Assembly: GCA_945861465.1 (NCBI GenBank)
Contig: CAMAVB010000054.1
Coordinates: forward strand, 1 to 34,534
Length of the DNA stretch: 34,534 nucleotides
Source: Candidatus Kuenenia stuttgartensis
GTDB taxonomy: Bacteria > Planctomycetota > Planctomycetia > Planctomycetales > Planctomycetaceae
Direction: 5' to 3'
The notes under the pieces were generated by a model. It did no database searches. It saw only the letters and a list, made by a program, of their open reading frames with translations, and was not told the origin of the DNA. How positions within the stretch are numbered: position 1 is the stretch's first letter; every line of letters begins with the position of its first letter. The translations under genes were made by a program, and so were the position numbers. Of this stretch, positions 27,850-33,494 are shown piece by piece.

Positions 27850-28050
27850 TCACGCGGACCGGACTGACATGCCGCCGTGAATTCGATCCCAAACTTCAAG
27901 TCGATGGATGAGAACATCGGGCGAAGCGTCGAAGCCCAGCTTCACAACGCCATTTTTGATTTCCAGCACCGTCACTTTGACAAATAGTCCGGAGACATCT
28001 GTTCCGCCGACCACAATTGACTCGTGCTGTTTCCTGGACAGGACCAACAT
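27850..28050 (-). CDS. csrA: CsrA/RsmA carbon-storage regulator
   Basis: A 66-residue CsrA: MLVLSRKQHESIVVGG, VKVTVLEIKNGVVKLGFDA and SPDVLIHRLEVWDRI. The RNA-contacting Arg in the conserved 'VHRLEVW' position and the Leu-Ser-Arg start are intact. It is an RNA-binding dimer that blocks or activates translation at GGA motifs in leader sequences. The ribosome site AAGGAGG precedes ATG by seven bases. Two tandem hairpins lie 150-270 bases upstream. Targets in this window would be leaders with GGA in loops; several small genes have AAGGA sites, but this is not specific evidence. Confidence 0.92.
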   Translation of the reverse strand: MLVLSRKQHESIVVGGTDVSGLFVKVTVLEIKNGVVKLGFDASPDVLIHRLEVWDRIHGGMSVRSA

Positions 28051-28322: not shown

Positions 28323-28718
28323 CTCATTAACTCGCCAACCGATAAGAACCGGCTTGCGATTTATTTAGTCGTCCGAATACCACAAACTCATGTGCCAGCA
28401 CCAAATACTGTTCACACTCGCCTGCGATGATAGCGAAGTGAATCCGAAATGCAATGCAGCCTGTGACTATCTTTCATAATAAATTGAATTTCGCTCACAT
28501 CTCTTGTGATTGGTCCATCGGATTGTTTTCAGATCTCCGTGAAGACGACATCCGCAGTCCGCAGCCACGCCACTTTGATCGTGAACGACAGACACTGAAC
28601 CTGGTCTCGTTTCAAACAAGTGGCACAATCGAGTATCATTGACAGCGTCGGTCAGGAGACGATGACGAGATGTGGGTGATTTGCATCCATTGATGACTCG
28701 ACCCGACAGGAGATAGGT
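28323..28718. other. intergenic stretch upstream of the DUF2294 gene
   Basis: About 395 bases, AT-richer than its surroundings, with no convincing coding frame on either strand. It must hold the promoter of the DUF2294 gene; TGGCAC at about 28621 lacks a matching -12 box. Confidence 0.35.
28708..28712 (+). promoter_or_regulatory. ribosome binding site that sets an ATT start
   Basis: AGGAG, six bases before the ATT codon at 28719. It is the only good site upstream of the DUF2294 gene and decides the start in favour of ATT over the downstream ATG at 28761. Confidence 0.65.
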
Positions 28719-29105
28719 ATTAAGACACAAGGCGAAATTGAAGCTGCAGTCTGCGACGGAATGTCACGGTTCGAGCACGATTTCATGGGCCGAGGTCCGA
28801 AAGACATCCGCACGCATCTGATTGGGGATCTATTGGTTGTTCGACTGCAGGGAGTTCTGACCGCTGCCGAACAGCATCTGGTGACGACACTTCCTCCTGA
28901 AAAAGGCCGTGATCTGTTGAAACAGGTCCGGACCCAACTGATCGAGATCGCCAGACCAGCACTGGAAAAACTCATCAGCGACACCACGGGCTGCAAGCCG
29001 ATCAGCATGCACCACGATATCAGCACGATCACTGGTGAGGAAGTTGTGATTTTCACACTCGTCGAGTCACCAGACTTCCGACCTTCGACAAGTAAAGCTC
29101 GATAA
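28719..29105 (+). CDS. DUF2294 (MpsC-like) protein, apparent ATT start
   Basis: A 128-residue DUF2294 protein. The family's N-terminal 'K-x-x-G-E-I-E-A-A-(I/V)' stretch is present (IKTQGEIEAAV), followed by RFEHDFMGRGPKDIRTHLIG, LVVRLQGVLTAAEQHL, GRDLLKQVRTQLIEIARP and ISTITGEEVVIFTL. The family is linked in some bacteria to a Na+/H+ or bicarbonate transport accessory (MpsC) and otherwise uncharacterised. The usual ATG is missing: in the only frame that yields the conserved N-terminus there is no ATG, GTG or TTG between an upstream stop (28677) and codon 28761; an ATT at 28719 sits six bases after AGGAG. A start at 28761 would cut off 14 conserved residues and lacks a ribosome site. Confidence 0.85.
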   Translation: MKTQGEIEAAVCDGMSRFEHDFMGRGPKDIRTHLIGDLLVVRLQGVLTAAEQHLVTTLPPEKGRDLLKQVRTQLIEIARPALEKLISDTTGCKPISMHHDISTITGEEVVIFTLVESPDFRPSTSKAR

Positions 29106-29124
29106 TTGGCGATCTTTCTTGACG

Positions 29125-29199
29125 CGGGCTTCGTCCGCAACCGAAACAAGTAAGCAGATTTCGCTGAAATCTGCTGTGCCGACTTCGGCGAAGTCGGCC
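29125..29199. repeat. cluster of three TTCG-loop hairpins
   Basis: GCGGGC-TTC-GTCCGC (29125-29139), GCAGATTTC-GCT-GAAATCTGC (29155-29175) and GCCGACTTC-GGC-GAAGTCGGC (29179-29199). The last two are perfect 9-base stems with the same geometry, and a partial third copy (TAGTCGGCC) follows. They lie just after the DUF2294 stop. Only the stem sequence changes between units, as in REP-like repeat families. Confidence 0.75.
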
Positions 29200-29503
29200 T
29201 ACATTGTAGTCGGCCTCAAAATGATGCGTTGCAAAAAATCGTCTCAGAAATATTCAACTCTCAACGTTTGCAGAGCAGAGTCTCTGTGTTGCCCGTGGCT
29301 GCAATCGCGCCCGGGTCAACGAGATGTGGTACCAGATTCCACCTCAATCAGCGCAGTGGTTTCGCGAAAATGCTGAAACCATGATCCGAGTCTGCTTTTT
29401 GCTCATAGCCAGAGGCGCCAACGAACTCTTTCAGCAGGCAATGTGCCACTAACGACCTTGTCGCATGAAATCAACTTTCAGTGAATCCGTAGTGTCACTC
29501 ATG
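29200..29503. other. convergent intergenic stretch
   Basis: About 300 bases between the DUF2294 gene and the transglutaminase gene. No coding frame stands out. A sigma-54-like match (minus TGGCACATTGCCTGCT, 29431-29446) reads away from any gene and is not counted as a promoter. Confidence 0.35.
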
Positions 29504-32624: not shown

Positions 32625-33494
32625 ATGAGCCGTGCCGCAACTGAATACCGCTACGAGAAACTCACCTGGCCTGAGATTAACGATGCGGTTGAACTCCAGA
32701 AGGTGTGTCTTGTGCCATGTGGGGCGATCGAGCAGCATGGGCCGCATTTACCCCTTGATGTCGATGTGGTTTGTCCACAAGGCATTGCACTGGGAGCTGG
32801 AAGACTGGCGGCAGAGAACCTGCTCGTGTTGCCGACAATCTGCTACGGCTATACCGGCCATGTGATGGACTTTCCCGGAACGATCAATTGCCACTATCAG
32901 CATTTCATCGATCATGTGCTTGATGTCTGCAAGTCACTGGCCTACCACGGGTTCAAGAAGATCGTCCTGTTCAACGGTCATGGTTCAAATATGCCACTGC
33001 TGGACATTGCCGCACGTCGCGCCACGCTTGAGACTGATGCCGAGTGCGTCGCTCTGGCGTGGTGGGGGCTGCTGACGATCGACAAAGAGTTTCTCCCGGG
33101 ATGGAGGGAAAGTGAGTTTCCAGGCGGTTTCTCACATGCCTGCGAGCTGGAAACGTCTGTGTATCAGTATCTCGACGGCGATAATGTTCGTACGGACAAG
33201 ATTGCGCCGGGCAACCTGTCTCTCAACGACGACAAGAGCCCCTTTCTGTGGGTAGATCTTTTGGGTGGCGGTCCGGCCCTCTTCGTCCCCTGGACGAGTT
33301 CTTACACCAGGAACGGCGTGATGGGAGCAGCCCATCTTGCGACCGCCGAGAAGGGTCGGCTGGCTTACGAAGAAGCGGTGAGGCAACTCGTGCGATTCGT
33401 GTCGTACTTCAAAGAGCGACCGGCGGACCAACGAGTGGATCATCATGCCGTGAAGCCGACGATGCCCATGCCGTGGGGACAAAGAAGTGTTTAG
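32625..33494 (+). CDS. creatininase family amidohydrolase
   Basis: A 289-residue creatininase-family protein (creatininase / MftE / FAPy deformylase-like). Metal ligands: Glu and His in CGAIEQHGPHLPLDVD, His in NGHGSNMPLL and Glu in FSHACELETSVYQYL (the family 'HAG..ETS' site). Other landmarks are GYTGHVMDFPGTI, KSLAYHGFKKIVLFNGHG and the late TRNGVMGAA loop. It hydrolyses a cyclic amide or a similar bond with a two-metal site; the substrate cannot be told. Start at 32625 has GGA seven bases and AGGA eleven bases upstream; the frame extends 46 codons further with unlikely sequence. The next gene on the same strand follows after 175 bases. Confidence 0.88.
   Translation: MSRAATEYRYEKLTWPEINDAVELQKVCLVPCGAIEQHGPHLPLDVDVVCPQGIALGAGRLAAENLLVLPTICYGYTGHVMDFPGTINCHYQHFIDHVLDVCKSLAYHGFKKIVLFNGHGSNMPLLDIAARRATLETDAECVALAWWGLLTIDKEFLPGWRESEFPGGFSHACELETSVYQYLDGDNVRTDKIAPGNLSLNDDKSPFLWVDLLGGGPALFVPWTSSYTRNGVMGAAHLATAEKGRLAYEEAVRQLVRFVSYFKERPADQRVDHHAVKPTMPMPWGQRSV

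Follow-up and report, generated by a model that had tools for sequence, protein, structure and literature searches.

An AUU codon matches the anticodon of the initiator tRNA at two of its three positions, and such complexes are disfavoured by initiation factor 3 (IF3). In E. coli, infC, which encodes IF3 and is the best-known gene with an AUU start, is autoregulated through the discrimination exerted by IF3, and the sigR gene of Streptomyces, with a GTC start, is repressed by the same factor (PMC5472188). Moreover, the expression of E. coli pcnB is limited by an AUU start (Binns and Masters 2002, in the account given by PMC13009471), while cvfC1 of Staphylococcus aureus gives less protein from its AUU start than from an AUG and depends on strong Shine-Dalgarno (SD) pairing (PMC13009471). 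An evolutionary reconstruction counted a single AUG-to-AUU switch among 61,358 AUG starts (PMC5622118). AUU starts outside infC are already known but very rare, and the interesting part of the present case is their recurrence in mpsC; the literature searched, in which DUF2294 is named in a single unrelated paper, yielded no description of such a start for the MpsC/DUF2294 family.

The window, that is, the whole stretch of DNA analysed, comprises 34,534 nucleotides of a contig assigned to Candidatus Kuenenia stuttgartensis. The original prediction had been that a DUF2294 gene starts at ATT 28719, six bases past AGGAG; these positions were confirmed, and the onset of conservation described below agrees with them. 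The features concerned are the following:

28677 to 28679, plus strand: in-frame TGA stop upstream of mpsC, read from the sequence.
28708 to 28712, plus strand: Shine-Dalgarno motif AGGAG, read from the sequence, with a 6-nt spacer to the ATT.
28719 to 28721, plus strand: putative ATT start codon of mpsC, from the conservation onset, the aligned starts in relatives and the lack of an earlier canonical codon.
28719 to 29105, plus strand: mpsC (DUF2294) coding sequence, 128 codons plus TAA, from the open frame and the PF10057 match.
28761 to 28763, plus strand: ATG at codon 15, the first canonical codon in the mpsC frame, rejected as start.

The product, of 128 aa, belongs to the MpsC family (PF10057, formerly DUF2294) according to a Pfam profile match with an E-value of 1.2e-34, which scores 119.1 bits, where the cut-off is 23, and covers positions 1-109 of the 111 in the profile. 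The start context reads GACCCGACAGGAGATAGGT ATT AAG ACA CAA GGC GAA ATT GAA. A codon-by-codon listing of the frame from 28680 to 28760 contained no ATG, GTG or TTG, which bears out the earlier claim that none separates the stop at 28677 from position 28761, and the sole near-cognates with a change in the first or third base of ATG were ATT 28689, ATA 28713, ATT 28719 and ATT 28737. The conserved frame of mpsC hence opens at an AUU with no canonical codon before it and with a suitably spaced SD.

Evidence on the start comes from the comparison with 104 distinct relatives sharing at least 60% identity, a comparison that the original prediction had itself proposed. Exactly at the codon aligned with the ATT, 0.89 of them carry ATG, GTG or TTG, and among 79 related loci in public genomes 71 are canonical at this codon (62 ATG, 7 GTG and 2 TTG). 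Upstream, at codons -13 to -1, the residue of the window is matched in only 0.01-0.38 of the relatives, the maximum of 0.38 coinciding with the GAG of the SD, and at codon -1 the value is 0.01. From codon 2 to codon 6 it rises to 0.87, 0.84, 0.76, 0.99 and 1.00, and it stays within 0.76-1.00 across codons 2-10. Furthermore, the changes at codons 2-14 with respect to the closest relatives are mostly synonymous (seven codons identical, five synonymous and one non-synonymous against locus L029). Both the jump in conservation and the synonymous changes indicate that translation covers codon 2 onward, and hence that codon 1 is the start. As a control of the method, csrA starts were read in the identical way, and all 51 proved canonical (49 ATG, 2 GTG). 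Taken together, ATT 28719 is very probably the start that mpsC really uses, as judged from these alignments.

The SD contributes less to this conclusion. In the surrounding sequence, 44 out of 619 positions have a match of at least 5 nt at a spacing of 4-9; taken by itself, the SD is weak evidence for the ATT, and the argument is made modest also by the 33 of 106 relatives which have no SD at all at mpsC. A 7-codon ATG...TAG frame (28693-28716, plus strand) contains the SD and stops two bases ahead of the mpsC ATT; it could reflect translational coupling to mpsC, or chance. The segment 28660-28760 folds no better than its shuffled versions (z 0.42), giving no sign of a leader hairpin masking the start.

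In the same genome, infC also reads as starting with ATT (GGAGGTAACC-ATT; CCGGAGGTAACC ATT AAA CGA). The pattern within the genus is GGAGGTA..C ATT AAA, and the genus members examined, together with L152 from the same family, have infC opening with ATT AAA/G behind GGAGGT or GGAGGC; in other members of the class the codon following the SD is mostly ATC or ATT-like.

A second lineage with an apparent ATT start was found among mpsC loci of the Pirellula type. Six of these (L040, L046, L049, L070, L076 and L083) have ACG, CAA, TCC or CCA at codon 1, and an ATT occurs at codon -4 in every one of them. The codons after this ATT read A[GT]C GA[AG] [CT]C[ACG], and an SD-like AAGGA, TAAGG, GGAG, AGGA or AGGT precedes it by 8-10 nt in each case. 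No canonical start common to the six was found ahead of the conserved MpsC N-terminus, and L046 lacks any canonical codon from the stop to that point. Four divergent members differ at codons -12 to -5, keep the ATT invariant and show only synonymous variation at codons 2-4; an ATG at codon 7 is common to the Pirellula-type loci, and the synonymous pattern argues that translation starts upstream of it. From these alignments, the ATT at codon -4 is the likely mpsC start in the six genomes, in which infC itself opens with ATT (four) or ATC (two) behind purine-rich motifs. The six loci group in one clade with an SH-aLRT support of 98, and the mpsC of the window falls elsewhere in a tree that is otherwise poorly resolved. 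Since the ATT occupies different positions, codon 1 in one case and codon -4 in the other, the two would represent independent events.

The case of L069, with CTG at codon 1, was rejected as a further non-canonical example, as it has an ATG at -19 behind AAGGAG, and so were L125, L126 and L128, which lack a start at codon 1 and have an ATG at -7.

With regard to mechanism, the ATT at 28719 would be decoded by fMet-tRNA with the aid of the AGGAG six bases upstream, and the mismatch at the third base would weaken initiation and expose it to rejection by IF3. MpsC may then be made at a low level, rising when IF3 becomes limiting, as is the case for infC. The analogy with infC, pcnB, cvfC1 and sigR points to weak initiation, sensitive to IF3, as the mechanism that can best be suggested for mpsC, and the idea fits, since ATT also appears to open infC in this genome and mpsC in a second lineage. 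That IF3 tunes the gene, or that its expression is kept low on purpose, as the original prediction suggested, would be an extrapolation from precedents in E. coli, Streptomyces and Staphylococcus. The likeness to each of these genes is partial. As in infC, including that of the same genome, the ATT stands behind a good SD, but mpsC does not encode IF3, so that any control would be one-way and not a feedback. With pcnB it shares an AUU start outside infC, although the proteins are unrelated and the expression of pcnB has been measured, whereas mpsC is read from sequence. Like cvfC1, it encodes a small protein from an AUU backed by an SD; the start of cvfC1, in contrast, was shown by ribosome profiling and reporters and has an extended SD, while mpsC has one of 5 nt and sequence evidence alone. 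Finally, sigR is likewise a case of near-cognate initiation outside infC, but it starts with GTC, encodes a sigma factor, has a demonstrated repression by IF3 and keeps its start across Streptomyces. The explanation as a whole, in which mpsC is translated from ATT 28719 by weak, IF3-open initiation, is considered probable.

The alternative that survives best accepts the ATT as the codon used and denies it any regulatory meaning: ATG, GTG or TTG would have mutated recently in an accessory gene that the cell can do without, the change being tolerated or else marking the onset of gene decay. An ATT at codon 1 of mpsC occurs in one genome only and is not kept in the nearest relatives, which have ATG, GTG or TTG there; any match to the MpsC family is present in only 3 of 17 other members of the genus; and deletion of mpsC in S. 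aureus gave no growth phenotype (PMC6689103). On the other hand, the frame is open and conserved across the whole domain, its SD is intact, and in the Pirellula-type clade the codon -4 ATT is kept in all six genomes in spite of their divergence. This neutral origin is possible, though rather unlikely. Conversely, that low or IF3-sensitive expression of mpsC matters to the cell is, by analogy with the genes described above, only slightly favoured.

A sequencing or assembly error hiding a true ATG, suggested by the fact that a single draft genome is concerned and that ATT is one base away from ATG, is very unlikely, since a consensus substitution error precisely on the start codon is improbable and six other genomes have an independent mpsC ATT start. 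Translation from farther upstream is scarcely credible: ATT 28689 does have an SD-like match of 6 nt (GGTGAT) with a spacing of 8 nt, but ATA 28713 has none, codons -13 to -1 are unconserved and the relatives begin at codon 1. Equally hard to defend is a protein 14 residues shorter, begun at ATG 28761, which is the first canonical codon of the frame but would drop 14 conserved codons with their mostly synonymous changes, is preceded by no SD match and has a canonical codon at its position in only 26% of the relatives.

As for the role of the protein, MpsC is dispensable for MpsAB function in S. aureus, and outside staphylococci mpsC does not adjoin mpsAB (PMC6689103). The product of the window is of the same family, PF10057, as that encoded in the S. 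aureus mpsABC locus, but its gene is not beside mpsAB, a DabA/MpsB homologue being found on another contig. A sequence search for solved structures in the family gave no hit. The genome also has a paralogue, L002 (G000:C77), a fusion in which the MpsC domain follows a response-regulator receiver domain, and long open frames similar to this fusion are present in many relatives. Genes for CsrA and CsbD lie near mpsC in the window, with a KaiC-like gene farther away; from this company of neighbours and fusions, a signalling or stress role for MpsC can be guessed.

The accessory gene csrA (27850-28050, minus strand) lies upstream of mpsC and divergent from it. A divergent pair of this kind, always on opposite strands and 0.4-2.4 kb apart, is present in about 16 other planctomycete loci (L027, L038, L045, L050, L054, L055, L057, L071, L072, L077, L098, L104, L111, L113 and L132, with a split csrA match in L003 and L044), and this recurrence suggests a functional link. 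An excess of GGA motifs of the CsrA type was looked for in the mpsC leaders and not found (1.25 per leader against 1.25 expected in the csrA-linked loci, and 1.13 against 1.27 in the unlinked ones). Two of the loci have a distant second MpsC homologue (L071:2259-2543 and L077:2245-2541, both on the minus strand; 29-31% identity) in the interval that separates csrA from mpsC, in the orientation of csrA.

Directly after mpsC there is a dispersed repeat of about 110 bp (29110-29225), with two hairpin-like inverted repeats, which has 43 matches spread over many contigs of this genome and, in the genus member G011, one match of 93%. A misbinned contig was considered in view of a creatininase-like gene (32628-33491) with no close homologue in the genus, and is unlikely given these matches of the repeat. 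A search for a plasmid origin on the contig gave no match.

The wider proposal that AUU arose and was kept repeatedly in planctomycete mpsC as a useful form of weak, IF3-sensitive initiation, with infC and mpsC making up a small IF3 regulon defined by its start codons, is speculative and, on balance, unlikely. Nevertheless, AUU starts would have arisen twice independently within one small family, and in the genomes concerned infC too opens with a near-cognate codon. Gene callers restricted to ATG, GTG and TTG would truncate genes of this kind or miss them. Should selection have favoured weak initiation, mpsC would offer a way into the function of its protein family.
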